The notes under the pieces: model-generated
The model's input: only the letters and a program-made list of their open reading frames with translations
Told to the model about the DNA's origin: nothing
The model's database searches: none
Assembly: GCA_022482625.1 (NCBI GenBank)
Contig: JAKVOU010000001.1
Span: 620,001-684,000 of the forward strand
Length of the DNA: 64,000 nt
Reading direction: 5' to 3'
Source of the DNA: Spirochaetia bacterium
GTDB taxonomy: Bacteria; Spirochaetota; Spirochaetia; Sphaerochaetales; Sphaerochaetaceae
In this document: positions 39,804 through 51,123 of the stretch, piece by piece
How the letters are laid out: each line of letters begins with the position of its first letter
Numbering within the stretch: position 1 is the stretch's first letter
Program-made: the position numbers and the translations under genes

Positions 39804-42770
39804 CTATATGTCCTTCCACTCAGTAATTTCGCCGGTAATGTTTACTCGTACACTTGAGATATAGTTTCGGGCATCATCAATATACCGAGAAGTAATCTTC
39901 TGGTATTTCTTCTCGCCGCTTTCGGCAATGACATAGAAATAGCTGGTATAAAGTGAACTTGAGGAAAGTTTCTCGACAAGGAAATCCAACGAAAGTTCTT
40001 TCAGCATGCGTTCCCTTTCCTCTTCAGGAAAGCAAGAATTGAAGCGGGCATTATGGCTGTCATAATCGAACGTATCCCCATAATGCGAATTGTCTAAGTC
40101 ATTCTTGCTGCTCAGGACAGTAAGGGTACGGGCACTGACATCTATATAGGCAAAGAATTCCACATTCAGGTTGATCAGCCAGTTCTTTATTTTCTTCTCA
40201 AGATATGCACGGTTTTCATCAGTTCCTATGAAATATGCTTCCAGTTCATCATTTGCACCATTGCGCATCAGGTAAGTCTTGAAACCGACGACCTTGTATT
40301 GGCCTTCCTTCGTCTTCAACTTGTAATGGCTTGTCAGCGTACGGGCACCTTCCTTGGACACCGCCCGCATCTGCTCCAAGTCAAGTACAGGATACCCATC
40401 GTCCAATTCATACGGAATCAGCTCGTCCAAGAATGTACGGACCGAAGTGATTGCCGGCAATTCATAATCACCATCGTCACAAACAGTGGAAATCGTATCC
40501 CGATCCAGATTGAAATGATAGGCAATGCAAGCCTCGGCCAACAACACGTCAAGGTTGTCCTTGACGCTCTTGTAACGGTCCTCTTCCTCCATCCGCTGCT
40601 GTACATCTTCCAAAGTAATGACAGCATCGATGTTCTCCCCCCGTCTGTACACCAACGATGTCAGCATGCACTTGTTCCACCGGGCCGAACCATCATCCAT
40701 ATGGCGCTGGAAGACAAACTGTTCCGACGTACTTCCTGCTCTCATGCGGGAAATTGCAGCATCAAGCAATTGCCTGTCTTCAGTTTTCTCGAAAAGTTCG
40801 TCACAGAAATTTTCCCTTGGGTATTCATCCGCACCATGATAAAAGGAATCGGTAGAAAAGACATAGTAATAATAGGAAATGCCATATTGCTCCAAGGCAA
40901 CCACATACCGATGTTCGAGATCCTTGAATTCCTTGAGGTCATCAATCATGGCAAGTATATTCCCATTGCCATCGAGCTGACTGAAACGTACGCGAACCCA
41001 ACCCGTCTGAAATGCCATCATCATCAAGGAAACATGGATATCACAGGTAACATCATTTCCATCTGCCATGATTTCTTCATAAGCACTGCAAAGCCGCAGG
41101 AGATCCTTTTCCGAGCAAGGCAATTTCTTGGTAAAGTCACGCAGACTTATATTTTCTTTCAGCCCGAGCTGTTCCACCAGGTTTATGTCAGGATGGGCCA
41201 TCCCTGTATTGGTATCTATCACCACATAATGCAACTCTGCATGGAGCAGGACACGATGCATCAGGCTTCTGAGGGATTTCTCCTTGTCCAGCAGCTTTTG
41301 AAGCTCTGTCACATCATTGCACGTCAGAATATAGGTATTGTCATCATAGGAAATCTGAACCTGCAGCCATTGCCCTTCAATGGTCTGCAACACATCATAG
41401 TATCTTCCCCTCTTTTCAAGGATACTGCAGATGTATTTTCCAAGATTCCGTCCATCAGGTCCGTTAAAAAGTGTAAAGAAAGCCCCCTGCTGTACCAGGT
41501 CTATGATATCTTCCCGACTTTTTCTAAGGAGGCTACATAGCAATGTAGAAACAATAAGCGGTTCCCGCTTTCTCCCTTTCCCATTGTTCCGTACCACAAG
41601 CAACGCTTGGCTTTCCTCAGAAAGGATAATATCCTGAAGTGCAACTTTCTTTTTCAACTTCTTCAAGGAAGACCGTTTTTTCCATAAAATCAGCAGGCAG
41701 CAGACCACACCGACGACAAGACCCAATATCAAGACGAAATACAGCCACCACGGTCCATTTTCGGCTTCAGGGGATTTAGAAGAAAAAAAAGTCTGAAGCA
41801 CAAAGGCATTTGCCGGTAATTTCGAAAGATCACCATTATGGGCAACAAGCTCAGTCATATTGATGATCGGATAGCTTGAGATGGAACCCAGCCTCAGCTT
41901 TGCAGGTTGTGCACCTTCCAGTATCTTGGTAACCAGTTTTGCAACGGCAAGACCAAGTTTTTCAGGAGCTATGACGATGCCACCGGCCAATCTGTAGTTG
42001 ACTCCGATTCCCAATGTTGAAAACACAGGGGCGCTGACCGCATCACAGATGACATCAATGGCCCTCTCCAACGAAAAATGTTGAGTTGCAGTACTCAGCA
42101 TGCCCCCATAGAAAAAAATGGTATGTTTCTGATCATATGAAGCAAGTTTCTTCTTCAGGGCATTCGTATCATATGCATCACTGTTGATGGTCACCAGCTT
42201 CAAGGCAAGGAAACCCTTCTGAGGCAGTATGAATTGCTTGGCGATGCCTTGGCTGGACAGAGTTCCGTCACATACCGCCACAGCCATATCTGCTGTCGGA
42301 AAGAATCGGGTAGCTATATCGAGTATGGAAGAAACACGCAGATCATCGGCATATCCGACATAATCAGGTTTCTTGTTTGCCTTTGCCGCAAGTTCATTGT
42401 CCTTTACGCCAAAGAAGACAACCGGTGTATCAGGAAAGAAAACCTGCTTGTATTTCAAGAAAAAGCTCAGGGCATCGTCACCGGCAACGCAAAGACATGC
42501 ATACTGTTTTCCAGCCGCCGTTTCCTCCCCAAGCAGTTTATACAGCCGTGATGTAGCCTGGGCTTCCCCTAGATTGAGACTATCCATCCATAGCAAATCA
42601 AAATCATTGGAATGATAACCAGCTTCAAAACCAGACAACTGCCGTGTCATTTCCACGTCATCAAACGAGTGAGACCCTACGAAAAGCACGGGAGCCTCAG
42701 CCATCAGACACATGCTGGAGTTAATCAGGAAAAAAACAAAAACAAAGAACTTTTGTATTATCCTACACAT
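39804..42770 (-). CDS. Membrane sensor protein with periplasmic ABC-substrate-binding-like domain and PAS-like domains, no output domain seen
   Basis: This protein has 988 residues. Residues 1-24 are a signal peptide. About 25-335 resemble the type 1 periplasmic fold found in sensor proteins that carry an ABC_sub_bind domain (PVVFFGVKDNE, FSTLGIGVNYRLAGGIVIAPEKLG). Residues 341-362 are a membrane helix, followed by a basic and coiled stretch. The remaining 600 residues look like consecutive PAS-type modules, including GQWLQVQISYDDNTYILTCN. I find no histidine-kinase H-box or ATPase, no GGDEF or EAL motif, no HTH and no methyl-accepting region. Perhaps it acts through a partner protein, or the output domain has diverged beyond recognition. 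GGGGG seven bases before the ATG and a good promoter support the start. It stands alone next to the rRNA operon. Confidence 0.7.
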   Translation of the reverse strand: MCRIIQKFFVFVFFLINSSMCLMAEAPVLFVGSHSFDDVEMTRQLSGFEAGYHSNDFDLLWMDSLNLGEAQATSRLYKLLGEETAAGKQYACLCVAGDDALSFFLKYKQVFFPDTPVVFFGVKDNELAAKANKKPDYVGYADDLRVSSILDIATRFFPTADMAVAVCDGTLSSQGIAKQFILPQKGFLALKLVTINSDAYDTNALKKKLASYDQKHTIFFYGGMLSTATQHFSLERAIDVICDAVSAPVFSTLGIGVNYRLAGGIVIAPEKLGLAVAKLVTKILEGAQPAKLRLGSISSYPIINMTELVAHNGDLSKLPANAFVLQTFFSSKSPEAENGPWWLYFVLILGLVVGVVCCLLILWKKRSSLKKLKKKVALQDIILSEESQALLVVRNNGKGRKREPLIVSTLLCSLLRKSREDIIDLVQQGAFFTLFNGPDGRNLGKYICSILEKRGRYYDVLQTIEGQWLQVQISYDDNTYILTCNDVTELQKLLDKEKSLRSLMHRVLLHAELHYVVIDTNTGMAHPDINLVEQLGLKENISLRDFTKKLPCSEKDLLRLCSAYEEIMADGNDVTCDIHVSLMMMAFQTGWVRVRFSQLDGNGNILAMIDDLKEFKDLEHRYVVALEQYGISYYYYVFSTDSFYHGADEYPRENFCDELFEKTEDRQLLDAAISRMRAGSTSEQFVFQRHMDDGSARWNKCMLTSLVYRRGENIDAVITLEDVQQRMEEEDRYKSVKDNLDVLLAEACIAYHFNLDRDTISTVCDDGDYELPAITSVRTFLDELIPYELDDGYPVLDLEQMRAVSKEGARTLTSHYKLKTKEGQYKVVGFKTYLMRNGANDELEAYFIGTDENRAYLEKKIKNWLINLNVEFFAYIDVSARTLTVLSSKNDLDNSHYGDTFDYDSHNARFNSCFPEEERERMLKELSLDFLVEKLSSSSLYTSYFYVIAESGEKKYQKITSRYIDDARNYISSVRVNITGEITEWKDI

Positions 42771-43046: not shown

Positions 43047-43430
43047 TCACCATCCCAAAAAGGACTTGTCTGCATAGGACTTATTAAAGTTATCTTTTGG
43101 TAGGACTCCCGCCATGGAAAGTTCACTCTCGTGCAATTATCCACCAAGGACAAGTACCATTGCAGTTTCATTATCGGCCAAAGTCTGGGCAACTTTCAGG
43201 GAATGGGTAATTACCGTCAGATCCTTTTTCTTCAGCAGGCTTTTTGCAAGTTCAGGGCAAGTCGTACCATTGTCAATGAACAATATGTTACCATCCTTAA
43301 TCAATCAGTCTTGGCAATCCTGGCAATTTCATCATGCACATGCAGGTTATTGTAGGAAACGTGAGAAATGACGGCCTTGGCCTGCGCATCAACGATTTTC
43401 CTCAGCCACCTGATGACAACTTTCTGCCGT
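43047..43430 (-). pseudogene. DeoR-family transcriptional regulator remnant
   Basis: Translation of the minus strand gives most of the DeoR effector domain in two frames. One frame carries KAVISHVSYNNLHVHDEIAR, then stops. The next frame continues with KDGNILFIDNGTTCPELAKS, then LTVITHSLKVAQTLADNE, VLVLGG, an in-frame TAA, and SMAGVLPKDNFNKSYADKSF. The order D/S-GTT, TxSL, GG and F-x-S/G is that of the sugar-phosphate-binding domain of GlpR/FruR-type DeoR proteins. At least one frameshift and two stops are present, and the HTH half is not recognisable. The gene is dead. A regulated sugar operon once nearby is an inference; none is visible now. Confidence 0.75.
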
Positions 43431-43527: not shown

Positions 43528-43541
43528 CCAAGTCGTTGCGT

Positions 43542-43614
43542 GGGCCGCTAGCTCAGCTGGTAGAGCAACGCCCTTTTAAGGCGTGGGTCACTGGTTCGAA
43601 CCCAGTGCGGCTCA
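43542..43614 (+). tRNA. tRNA-Lys (TTT)
   Basis: The cloverleaf has acceptor GGGCCGC/GCGGCTC, D arm GCTCAGCTGGTAGAGC, anticodon loop CTTTTAA giving TTT, and T arm CTGGTTCGAACCCAG. The discriminator is A. CCA is not encoded. Confidence 0.96.
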
Positions 43615-43642
43615 ATGCTTTTAGGGCAAAGAGAAGAATCGT

Positions 43643-43714
43643 GTCTCCTTCGTCTAACGGTTAGGACTCAAGGTTTTCATCCTTGCAATATGGGTTCGAT
43701 TCCCGTAGGAGATG
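43643..43714 (+). tRNA. tRNA-Glu (TTC)
   Basis: The cloverleaf has acceptor GTCTCCT/AGGAGAT, D arm GTCTAACGGTTAGGAC, anticodon stem CAAGG/CCTTG with loop TTTTCAT giving TTC, T arm TGGGTTCGATTCCCG, and discriminator G. It follows tRNA-Lys by 28 bases and is probably cotranscribed. CCA is not encoded. Confidence 0.95.
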
Positions 43715-43719
43715 ATTAC

Positions 43720-43796: not shown

Positions 43797-45374
43797 TTAC
43801 AGGTCAAGTCCGAATTCATGGAAGAACTGACGTTTTACGGCATCCTTCCCGCTTACATATAGTTTTCCATCATCTTCTACACAAAGCATCTGATCCAGGA
43901 AAAGTTCAAGTTGCCCATTATGGGCTCCACCACCCATCAGTCCATAGTTTTTCCAGTTTATCCCCGACGCATGTTCAAGCTTCCTGAATGTTGCCAGATA
44001 ACGCAATGCAAGGAAAATTCCCATAAACCTGGCAGACCGCTCCTGCGTTTCACCAGGTTCCAGAAAGGCCACCTCAAGGAAAAGGTCCAGTTCATTCCTG
44101 TCATGGAACTGCACGGCAGAAAGATAGCCGTTGACGCCATGTCCTTCCAACATGACCAATTCATCGCTCCATGTTATAAAACCAGCAAGAAGCAGCTTCT
44201 TGTCGTCAATAGCAACATCAACAAGTTTACCTTTGTCATCGAATGTCAGATCAAGCAGCATCTCAAGCTTCTCCAGGTCAGCAATTTCATCTTTTGTATA
44301 GCCTTGGAAAAGATAGTCATAAGCCTCATCTTCCTCTTCTGTAGCCTTTGCCGACAGTATGTCATCACCCAAACAATGGTTATCGAAGGAAAAGGCGAAA
44401 TAAGTGGAATAGTCTTCAGTGGTCATCGTTTCTACGATACCCACAGATTCCGTTCCCAAAGGATATCCGCTGACTTTTGATTTGATATCTTTTCTCAAAG
44501 ATTCAGGAATCTTACCTCTCTTCCCTATCAGGGTATAAGGGATCCCCAATTCAGCAAGAAGTTGCCTGGTCTGCGTATCAGCAAGTTGTTCGTCCAGGCA
44601 CAGACAAACCAATCCATAATTTTTTTCCGAAGAAGCATCAAGCACCTGCCTGACACCATCGATGCCAGTATCAGTAAGGAAATAAGTAAGCGGTATATTG
44701 CCGTCACTGTCATACATTACCCAGAAGAGGCCCTCAGTGCCATCTTTTCCGTAACCAGCAGAAACCAACAGGTATGGGTGCCCGTCTGCACCGTTGCAGG
44801 AAGACAACCAATTTGCAATGGACTGGTCCATATCATTGCCGCAGATACCGCTGCCGACCAGCTGAGTCCCTCCCTGCTGTTTTGACAACCACGTGTAAAA
44901 GGAAGGTTCCTCATCGTCTGCGGCAACTATGAGAAACTGACAGAAGGCAACAATCCACCCAAAGCAATCATTCCTTGGAAAATATTCCTTGAGATTGCCA
45001 AAGAACCCAGGGTCCTTCTTCAGCACCTGCCAAATGAAGTATCTGCTACCGAAAGGATATACCCGATGGTCAACCATCAGAGAATAGAACTGTTCGTCAT
45101 CTGCACCCTTCAGTCCTTCGCCACCAGGGATGCAGGAAACATCCCAATCGCCGGGAAAAAGCAAGCTTTCAAAGAAAGAATCTCCCATCGAACCAAGTTC
45201 AGCAAAAGGAATGAACAGTTTTCCGGCAACCGTACCAAGCGGACGAAACATCTTCCCGTCTTTGCCGTTCTCTTTTTTCCCTGGGATATACATGCCGGCA
45301 AGCTTGGTCCCGTCCCGGAATTCCATGCACGCTACGGGCTTCATATCCTGTTGCTCTTCAAAAGGGTTCTTCAT
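43797..45374 (-). CDS. Uncharacterised acidic protein, probably derived from an IS1634/IS4-type transposase
   Basis: This is an intact 525-residue open frame with no signal peptide or membrane segment and an acidic composition. By eye its segment order follows IS1634-type transposases. YPFGSRYFIWQVLKK...LKEYFPRND matches the YGASYFF...FPD region, and FYTWLSKQ the conserved Trp segment. LFWVMYDSDGNIPLTYF matches the GxPxxY region and CLDEQLADTQTRQLLAELGI the D-R-G-F segment. ARFMGIFLALRYLATFRK matches the terminal FxxFLALxY helix. The catalytic set is not complete: the first Asp (normally YDTTS) is absent, and the Glu context is altered. There are no inverted repeats at its ends. I infer a long-diverged, possibly domesticated protein. 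If this reading is wrong it is simply a protein I do not recognise. AAGGAG lies just upstream of the start. Confidence 0.55.
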   Translation of the reverse strand: MKNPFEEQQDMKPVACMEFRDGTKLAGMYIPGKKENGKDGKMFRPLGTVAGKLFIPFAELGSMGDSFFESLLFPGDWDVSCIPGGEGLKGADDEQFYSLMVDHRVYPFGSRYFIWQVLKKDPGFFGNLKEYFPRNDCFGWIVAFCQFLIVAADDEEPSFYTWLSKQQGGTQLVGSGICGNDMDQSIANWLSSCNGADGHPYLLVSAGYGKDGTEGLFWVMYDSDGNIPLTYFLTDTGIDGVRQVLDASSEKNYGLVCLCLDEQLADTQTRQLLAELGIPYTLIGKRGKIPESLRKDIKSKVSGYPLGTESVGIVETMTTEDYSTYFAFSFDNHCLGDDILSAKATEEEDEAYDYLFQGYTKDEIADLEKLEMLLDLTFDDKGKLVDVAIDDKKLLLAGFITWSDELVMLEGHGVNGYLSAVQFHDRNELDLFLEVAFLEPGETQERSARFMGIFLALRYLATFRKLEHASGINWKNYGLMGGGAHNGQLELFLDQMLCVEDDGKLYVSGKDAVKRQFFHEFGLDL

Positions 45375-45441
45375 AGGATTCTCCTTGCTGGAAAGGCTAC
45401 CCTAACCTTACTTTTTTTGCAACTGTCGAATTAAACCTACA

Positions 45442-45670: not shown

Positions 45671-46255
45671 ATGACAACAGCACAGATTTATCAGATGATT
45701 GAAGAAGAAATGTATGAAATGCACAAGGAAAGGCCAAGGGTATCCTATGATGTTTTCCTTTCCAGTTGGTTTGTAGCCCACTGCATTGACAATGTGACAG
45801 ACTACCCCTTGGAAAAGCTTCGTTTTGTCTGCCCTATGAAATTTTTCACTACCATGCTCCATTGTGAAAGTGAAAAGCATATCATCCTGCTGGCAACGTA
45901 TTTCTTACCTGCAAACTATACCATTCCTGATCAAGTCATCAAGGATTTCGTCAGCTATCCTACGGATGTATTCCATGAAAAACATCCGAAGATGAGCCAA
46001 AATGCATTGTTCGACAAGGCATTGCATGATAAGGATTACCACATCTCCCTGACGCTTGTCACGACAAGCAACCAACCGTTGGAAGGTCGGTCATGGGCCA
46101 TGCTCAATGAATTCAACAAGAATCTTGATACTTCATATCTCTGTAGGATAACAGCAAGGTATCTTGATTTGGAAAATATCAAGACATTCTACACCTATGC
46201 CCAAGACATTGATGCCTATGCCCAGGCCTTGGAAACAGAAATGGAGAATGAATGA
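45671..46255 (+). CDS. Uncharacterised protein cotranscribed with an aldehyde dehydrogenase
   Basis: This 194-residue soluble protein belongs to no family I recognise. It is rich in aromatic residues and His/Cys/Met, without obvious metal motif, signal or membrane segment. Its frame has an upstream stop, so the ATG given or a later one must be used. No SD lies before this ATG, but a seven-codon open frame (MPEQNFR) ends in a TGA overlapping it (ATGA), and AGGG lies eight bases before that leader's ATG. Translation may therefore be coupled to the leader. Its stop overlaps the next gene's start by four bases, so it probably functions with the dehydrogenase. Confidence 0.65.
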   Translation: MTTAQIYQMIEEEMYEMHKERPRVSYDVFLSSWFVAHCIDNVTDYPLEKLRFVCPMKFFTTMLHCESEKHIILLATYFLPANYTIPDQVIKDFVSYPTDVFHEKHPKMSQNALFDKALHDKDYHISLTLVTTSNQPLEGRSWAMLNEFNKNLDTSYLCRITARYLDLENIKTFYTYAQDIDAYAQALETEMENE

Positions 46256-49091: not shown

Positions 49092-51123
49092 ATGAACGCA
49101 AAGACAACAAGAAACATAGGGATCATGGCCCATATAGATGCAGGTAAGACAACTACGACTGAACGGATTCTCTACTACACAGGAGAGAATCATCAAATAG
49201 GAGAAGTCGACAACGGAAATGCCACGATGGACTGGATGGAACAGGAACAGGACCGCGGTATAACAATCGTCAGTGCAGCCACGACCTGCAGATGGAAAGA
49301 TCATCAGATCAACATCATCGATACCCCCGGTCATGTTGACTTCACTGCTGAGGTCGAACGGTCATTGAGGGTCCTTGACGGAGCCATTACCGTCCTCTGT
49401 GCCGTCGGAGGAGTCGAGCCACAGACAGAAACCGTATGGCGTCAGGCAGACAATTACAAAGTTCCACGTATTGCTTTTATCAACAAGATGGACAGACTGG
49501 GAGCTAATTTCTACAATGTTCTCGATGAACTGAAGGAAAAACTTGGAGCACACCCGGTTCCTTTGTACATTCCCGTAGGCAGTGAAAGTGATTTCAAAGG
49601 AATCATTGACCTCCTTTCCATGGAAATGCTTACTTTTGATCCCACTGACCTAGGTGCTACAGTCTCAAAGCATCCGATTCCGGCCGACATGCAGCAACTT
49701 GCAGCAACATGGAGAGAATCTCTCATCGATGCAAGTTCAACCTATGATGAAAAGATTATGGATTTCTTCTTTGCTGAAAAAGAAATCCCCTCAGAACTTA
49801 TCAAGCAGGCAATGAGAATCGGTACACTGAAAAGGGAATTGCTGCCGGTATTCGTCGGATCATCCCTCAAGGATATCGGAGTCCAACCATTGCTTGATGG
49901 GGTTGTGGACTATCTTCCGAGTCCTGATGAAATTACGACAGTCTACGGTACCGATCCCAAGAAAGGTACGAAGATACAGATACTCCATGATGAAAACGCA
50001 CCAGCCCTCGCTTTGGTGTTCAAGATTCAGGTAGACAGGGAAGCAGGCCCACTCTCTTATGTGCGGGTCTATAGGGGCAAACTCAAGAAAGGTACCATGA
50101 TCTTCAATGTCACGAAGAAGAAAAAGGAAAGGCTCGGCAGAATTCTCAGGGCACATGCAGACCGGTTCGAAGACCTCAATGAACTCGAGGCCGGTGATAT
50201 CGGGGTCATCGTAGGTTTCAAACATGCTCAGACAGGTGATACATTGGCAAGTGAAGGGAACCAGATACTCTTGGAAGAAATCCACTTCCCCACTCCCGTA
50301 ATCTCCGTTGCCATCGAGCCGAATTCACAAAGTGACAGTGACAAACTCAAGGCTGCACTCGCCCAGCTTTCGATGGAAGACCCTACCTTTACCTACAAGG
50401 ACAATGAAGAGACAGGGACAACTGGTCATCAGCGGCATGGGTGAACTTCATCTTGATGTTCTTGTCACCAGGCTGACAAAAGAAATGAAAATCGCCGCAC
50501 ATGTAGGCAAGCCGCAGGTCACCTACCGAGAATCAATCACCTCAGCAGTTTCAGGAAGCTACAAGTTCAGCAAGCAGATTGCCGGCAAGAGCAATGAAGC
50601 AGTCATAGGACTTTCAATTGAACGGCTTCCACAGGGAAGCGATAACCAGATTATATTCAGTGCACCGACCAGGGGAATCCCAGAGGACATCATTGCTGCC
50701 ATCAGACGAGGCATAGAAGGTGCCCTGCAAGGAGGTATCAAATTCGGTTATGAAGTATGTGAAATCAAAGTAGATGTCACTCAGATTACCTACAACGAGC
50801 TTACTGCCAGTGACTTTGCCTTTGAAGCCTGTGCTGCAATGTGCTTTGACCAGACTTGCAAGGAAGCTGGCCCCATACTTATGGAACCGATCATGAAGCT
50901 GCAGGTCATCGTACCGAACCAGTTCGTCGGAGAAGTCATCGGAAGCCTTACCATGAGAGGCGGTATCGTCAGCAGCATGGAATCACGACCGAATGCAGAC
51001 CAGATCAATGCCGAAGCACCGCTGTCGGTCATGTTCGGCTACTCGACCGTCCTGCGTTCTGCTACCCAAGGACGAGGCAGTTTCTCAATGGAATTCGACC
51101 ACTATGCGGAAAAACAACGATAG
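49092..51123 (+). pseudogene. fusA: Elongation factor G (spirochaete EF-G2-like), interrupted by a +1 frameshift
   Basis: The first 440 codons encode an excellent EF-G: P-loop [22 protein letters not shown] (switch I/G2), DTPGHVDFT (G3) and NKMDRLG (G4), then domain II. After NEETG the frame runs into a stop at 50442-50444. The neighbouring frame continues without loss as [15 protein letters not shown] to the end of domain V. Removing one G from the GGG near 50417 restores a 676-residue EF-G of normal length. Its wording ([16 protein letters not shown]) recalls the Borrelia second EF-G, which in published work acts in ribosome recycling rather than translocation. A good ribosome site (ACGGAA) precedes the ATG. 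It may be a recent pseudogene or a single-base sequence error. Programmed shifting is unlikely. Confidence 0.85.

Follow-up and report, generated by a model that had tools for sequence, protein, structure and literature searches.

Introduction

In eukaryotes the domestication of transposases is well documented, and the literature that we found on the subject describes mainly eukaryotic cases. Among bacterial transposases, the Tn5 inhibitor (Inh) is a form that inhibits and does not transpose; the active transposase gene itself produces it, as a version shortened at the N-terminus. The TldR proteins, regulators derived from TnpB, are bacterial transposon proteins that have lost catalysis and been kept for another role (PMC13418256). 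In the IS4 groups and the emerging families, including IS1634, the catalytic DDE triad is described as perfectly conserved, and a long spacer between the second Asp and the Glu is a feature of IS1634 (PMC2266710). A C-terminal motif resembling QxxLF allows IS1634 transposases to bind the beta sliding clamp (PMC4549789).

Here we describe a gene in a 64,000-nucleotide stretch of a Spirochaetia genome (the window) whose product, P0001, is probably a catalytically dead descendant of an IS1634-family transposase that has been kept as a gene.

Results

The gene lies between a tRNA pair and a conserved gene, with the following features.

43541..43615, plus strand: tRNA-Lys, flanking marker
43642..43715, plus strand: tRNA-Glu, synteny marker, convergent with the P0001 ORF
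43797..45374, minus strand: intact ORF of P0001, IS1634-transposase descendant, 525 aa, with the ATG start at the 45374 end
45381..45386, minus strand: Shine-Dalgarno sequence AAGGAG, 6 nt upstream of the P0001 ATG, a strong ribosome-binding site
45671..46255, plus strand: conserved 194-aa gene, function unassigned, flanking marker with 77-79% identity in congeners

P0001 is read toward the tRNA-Lys/tRNA-Glu pair and away from the 194-aa gene. The first-pass annotation had called the gene intact along its whole length; all 525 codons are indeed open, and the strand is now assigned as minus. Its codon bias (0.087) falls inside the range of the neighboring genes (0.068-0.111), and its GC3 of 0.48 is close to theirs (0.47-0.54), compared to 0.78 for L031, one of the genome's insertion sequences. 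The annotation had also described the neighboring accessory genes as decaying. This description fits a broken DeoR C-terminal domain and a split EF-G-like gene, but the 194-aa, aldehyde dehydrogenase and ClC genes are intact. The DeoR-family remnant, at ~43138-43295 on the minus strand, covers 51 aa of the C-terminal sensor domain (Pfam E 2.6e-14) before it runs into a stop, and more pieces surround it. The EF-G-like gene (49092-51123, plus strand, 4 kb from P0001) is spread over two overlapping frames, 49092-50444 and 50308-51123, and its domain III is interrupted mid-way by a frameshift or an assembly error. A 988-aa protein encoded at 39804-42770 on the minus strand has a signal-like hydrophobic N-terminal start and no Pfam match at E 0.001; judged by eye, its N-terminal part resembles a substrate-binding sensor domain.

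Standard family libraries do not recognize P0001. Searches against Pfam, NCBIfam, PHROGs, PADLOC (defense systems) and PDB sequences gave no credible match, and the NCBIfam model for IS1634 (NF033559) did not match even at E 10. The genome itself is rich in insertion sequences, with ~30 matches to DDE_Tnp_1. When P0001 was compared one-to-one with the DDE families of the genome, only the L028/L031 family aligned along it (332-335 columns, P 0.003); none of the families L013, L016, L025, L026, L032, L033, L035 and L036, compared singly, was collinear with it over the full length. NF033559 identifies L031 as an IS1634 transposase, with a score of 176.8 against a cut-off of 100. The profile of the nearest branch consisted of this multicopy IS1634 element of the same genome and its relatives, and hhalign matched P0001 to it over 321 columns with an E-value of 2.4e-5 and a score of 47.5, compared to 25.8 for the best of 60 shuffles. 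Scores against broader IS1634 profiles were 33-38, with shuffles reaching at most 23.4 and 39 unrelated ORFs of the window at most 22.0. A gapped MAFFT alignment of P0001 with IS1634 proteins is collinear from end to end, including the C-terminal EFGLDL/EFGLEI. Segments with IS1634 counterparts are LFIP...LFPxxWDxS in the N-terminal part, then LKEYFP, the NIPLTYF and LxLDE of the core, and later GFITWSD, the FLALRYL helix and the C-terminal FHEFGLDL. The segment order of IS1634 transposases is thus retained, as had been proposed at first reading. Identity over aligned columns is 13-18% to IS1634 proteins (18% to L031), and a search for homologues that combine a full triad with flanking repeats returned none beyond these ordinary IS1634 elements. 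The descent of P0001 from an IS1634-family transposase, on the branch of the L031 element, is well supported by these sequence comparisons.

The L028-L031 element of the window's genome is a multicopy IS1634 element of ~1.95 kb with the ends ATCAGAGTTTTGCAATRCAGGTTTAGTA. L031 has four intact copies, and two copies of the L028-L031 element lie almost head to tail at G000:C1:2460357-2464088.

The catalytic region of P0001 departs strongly from the family, as the alignments show at three positions.

44772..44815, minus strand: expected region of the first catalytic Asp (DxTSxS in IS1634), with no Asp at the equivalent P0001 position
44592..44594, minus strand: D261, aligned with the second catalytic Asp; the RG that follows this Asp is EQ in P0001
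44091..44093, minus strand: E428, aligned with the catalytic Glu of RDxxEKxF; the Tyr and Lys of the motif are lost

The DxTS position of IS1634 falls in the first core strand, and none of three alignments places an Asp of P0001 at it. A frameshift hiding the motif was sought in the other reading frames of P0001 and was not found. D261 and E428 are aligned with the second and third residues of the triad and the first Asp is absent, in agreement with the first-pass annotation. We scored as conserved every column with at least 85% conservation across 26 IS1634 proteins, 29 in all. P0001 keeps 11 of these 29, compared to 24-29 of 29-32 for each of the 26 proteins when left out in turn. The 11 are mainly glycine, proline, aromatic and hydrophobic positions, together with D261, D425 and E428.

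The fold of P0001 was examined by structure prediction, as had been suggested beforehand.

44520..44774, minus strand: predicted RNase H-like core, P0001 residues 201-285 (strand-strand-strand-helix-strand-helix-strand)

A model from the single sequence has a mean pLDDT of 34.9, too poor to be trusted alone; in it the secondary structure of residues 201-300 follows the RNase H order, and the top Foldseek matches are retroviral integrases (low confidence). A second model, made from an alignment with 14 IS1634 rows, reached a mean pLDDT of 50.7 and a pTM of 0.52, with core blocks mostly at ~60-81. Its best match is the Tn5 (IS50) transposase (1muh; Foldseek E 4.6e-4, Z 11.8, 281 residues), and the Tn5 transposase inhibitor (1b7e) stands lower among the matches with a Z of 8.0; among transposases, no structures match better than these two. 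The model is weak, and because its alignment is made of IS1634 rows part of the Tn5 match comes from that input; it was weighed together with the single-sequence model. An RNase H core with a Tn5-like arrangement is supported by prediction.

Both the acidic composition and the lack of terminal repeats noticed at first reading were confirmed. P0001 has a pI of 4.51, with 84 D+E against 47 K+R. Nine of the ten IS1634 proteins tested have a pI of 6.6-9.2 and one of 5.0, and the basic tail of L031 is missing from P0001. No inverted repeats better than those of shuffled sequence surround the gene, and the 21-bp end of L031, the closest IS1634 element in the genome, is absent from the window with up to three mismatches allowed. 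Being present in a single copy and having no recognizable ends, P0001 is immobile by its features. In sum, P0001 shares with IS1634 transposases a collinear arrangement from the N-terminal region to the C-terminal EFGL motif, the (predicted) RNase H core and the long spacer between the second Asp and the Glu (166 residues in P0001, 189 in L031). Unlike them it lacks the first Asp and DxTS, has DEQ in place of DRG, has lost most of the Glu-region motif, and is an acidic, single-copy protein without terminal repeats or basic tail.

In two other species of the genus (G001 and G003) ~820 bp separate the tRNA-Glu from the 194-aa gene, and the interval holds an asparaginase-like ORF in place of P0001. 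Among the genomes searched, P0001 is thus lineage-specific at this position. IS1634 elements duplicate 5-6 bp of their target; around P0001 there are no ends to mark the boundary of such a duplication, and the two congeners offer an occupied site, not an empty one, for comparison. The gene is absent from three same-genus species (G001-G003). Credible homologues were found in none of 139 same-family, 393 phylum and 395 class genomes, and plasmid, phage and viral collections gave no match, nor did genome contigs searched with exact 8-residue patterns, which would overlook the majority of distant relatives. Weak matches turned up in genomes of the family and the phylum (E 5e-4 to 0.23), either in unrelated proteins (sugar kinases, a helicase, a GlgC-like protein and an AAA ATPase) or in untraced frames, and we regarded them as chance. 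The asparaginase-like ORF of the congeners, of ~165 aa (L126 159-656; G001:C5:91170-91664), occurs in 15 of the 41 genomes that were searched; a search of the genome that contains the window did not find it.

One further motif of P0001 recalls the clamp binding of IS1634 transposases.

43899..43913, minus strand: QLELF, residues 488-492, which matches the beta sliding clamp-binding consensus QLxLF (PMC4549789)

A Q-x-x-hydrophobic-hydrophobic motif close to the C-terminus is found in most of the 26 comparison IS1634 proteins. P0001 shares with the described clamp binding (PMC4549789) a C-terminal motif of the QxxLF type, in its full consensus form and as the only QLxLF among the 27 proteins, but this putative motif falls within a predicted helix and lies further upstream than the usual one, whose Gln is missing from P0001. 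The occurrence of QLELF in the last 60 residues has a P of 0.0017 by shuffles, in a test chosen post hoc.

Discussion

We consider it probable that P0001 is a catalytically dead descendant of an IS1634 transposase that has been kept as a gene. Both its expression and its catalytic deadness are predictions from the sequence. Of the original proposal of a domesticated transposase, the IS1634 descent, the loss of the first Asp and the absence of element ends stand; selection for a new host role, which we infer, is likely, and the gene is absent from three congeners. P0001 keeps the N-terminal region, the predicted RNase H core, the long insertion and the C-terminal helices of its IS1634 ancestor. 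It no longer has the first of the metal-binding Asp residues, the element ends, the basic tail or most of the other residues conserved in the catalytic region. The protein is therefore expected to have the fold of a transposase and neither to cut DNA nor to move, and with its cutting machinery partly lost and its DNA ends lost it is probably kept for another job. About 4.1% of the substitutions that the gene could undergo would introduce a stop, which implies that it would be intact after 0.1 neutral substitutions per site with a probability of ~0.0015 (substitutions only, indels not counted). The gene also seems to have persisted for long enough to take on the composition of its host, and the loss of catalytic columns, the retention of fold positions and this composition together suggest a long life outside transposition. 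Much of the divergence from IS1634 proteins may predate immobility, having arisen while the ancestor was still mobile.

A less likely reading, but one to be taken seriously, is that P0001 is the transposase of a very divergent, uncatalogued IS1634-type element from which the ends and the first Asp disappeared fairly recently; the gene would have acquired no stop yet and have no host role. The abundance of insertion sequences in the genome (30 DDE_Tnp_1 matches), the further broken genes near P0001 and the persistence of D261 and E428 in their aligned places would all fit such a relic. So would the absence of an orthologue in congeners; since none was found in the genomes searched, the gene may be short-lived, and the motif losses could have arisen quickly after recent inactivation. 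The pattern of loss argues against this, as it extends beyond one motif to the majority of the conserved catalytic columns, while fold glycines, aromatics and hydrophobic residues are kept. The composition is host-like in comparison with the GC-rich copies of L031, no recognizable end is found on either side, and there is no closer relative in the family, phylum or class genomes searched.

It is very unlikely that P0001 is an orphan protein with a chance resemblance to transposases: empty searches of curated libraries and a pairwise identity of just 13-18% over aligned columns would suit an orphan, but the profile match lies far beyond the null distributions, all segments occur in the correct order, and the RNase H topology is predicted even without an alignment. 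Least likely of all is that P0001 is still active as a transposase, with unusual ends and with another residue, such as D197 shortly before predicted strand 1, as its first metal ligand, since in spite of the retained D261 and E428 the protein is acidic, lacks the basic tail of L031 and is encoded in a single copy without terminal repeats, in a family where the triad is described as perfectly conserved (PMC2266710).

If P0001 is a dead transposase kept as a gene, it may work by binding a partner, for example the beta sliding clamp via QLELF or other transposase chains, and so act as a non-cutting competitor or regulator, a mechanism that we propose with low confidence. Our leading guess, held at that same low level and drawn from the motif, is a clamp-binding, non-cutting competitor of transposases. 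Another low-confidence guess, made by analogy, is an inhibitor that mixes with transposase chains as Tn5 Inh does; heteromer formation between P0001 and L031 is doubtful given their 18% aligned identity. P0001 also differs from Tn5 Inh in being full-length, lacking the first Asp and standing alone without an element. Many insertion sequences of this genome may need the same clamp contact as QLELF would make. That the dead protein is a host factor which occupies the clamp via QLELF and limits these many elements is, in this specific form, unlikely; if true, it would be the DDE-transposase counterpart of the nuclease-dead TnpB regulators. P0001 resembles TldR as a bacterial transposon protein that has lost catalysis and, we infer, is kept for another role. 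The TldR proteins belong to another family and fold, are RNA-guided and have a demonstrated function (PMC13418256), whereas any function of P0001 is a proposed one.

Standard family libraries can miss descendants such as P0001 completely, and bacterial transposase descendants may therefore be under-counted. A bacterial DDE transposase of full length, deprived of its catalytic site but with an open frame and a host-like character, would offer a clean way to ask whether such proteins acquire roles in the host.
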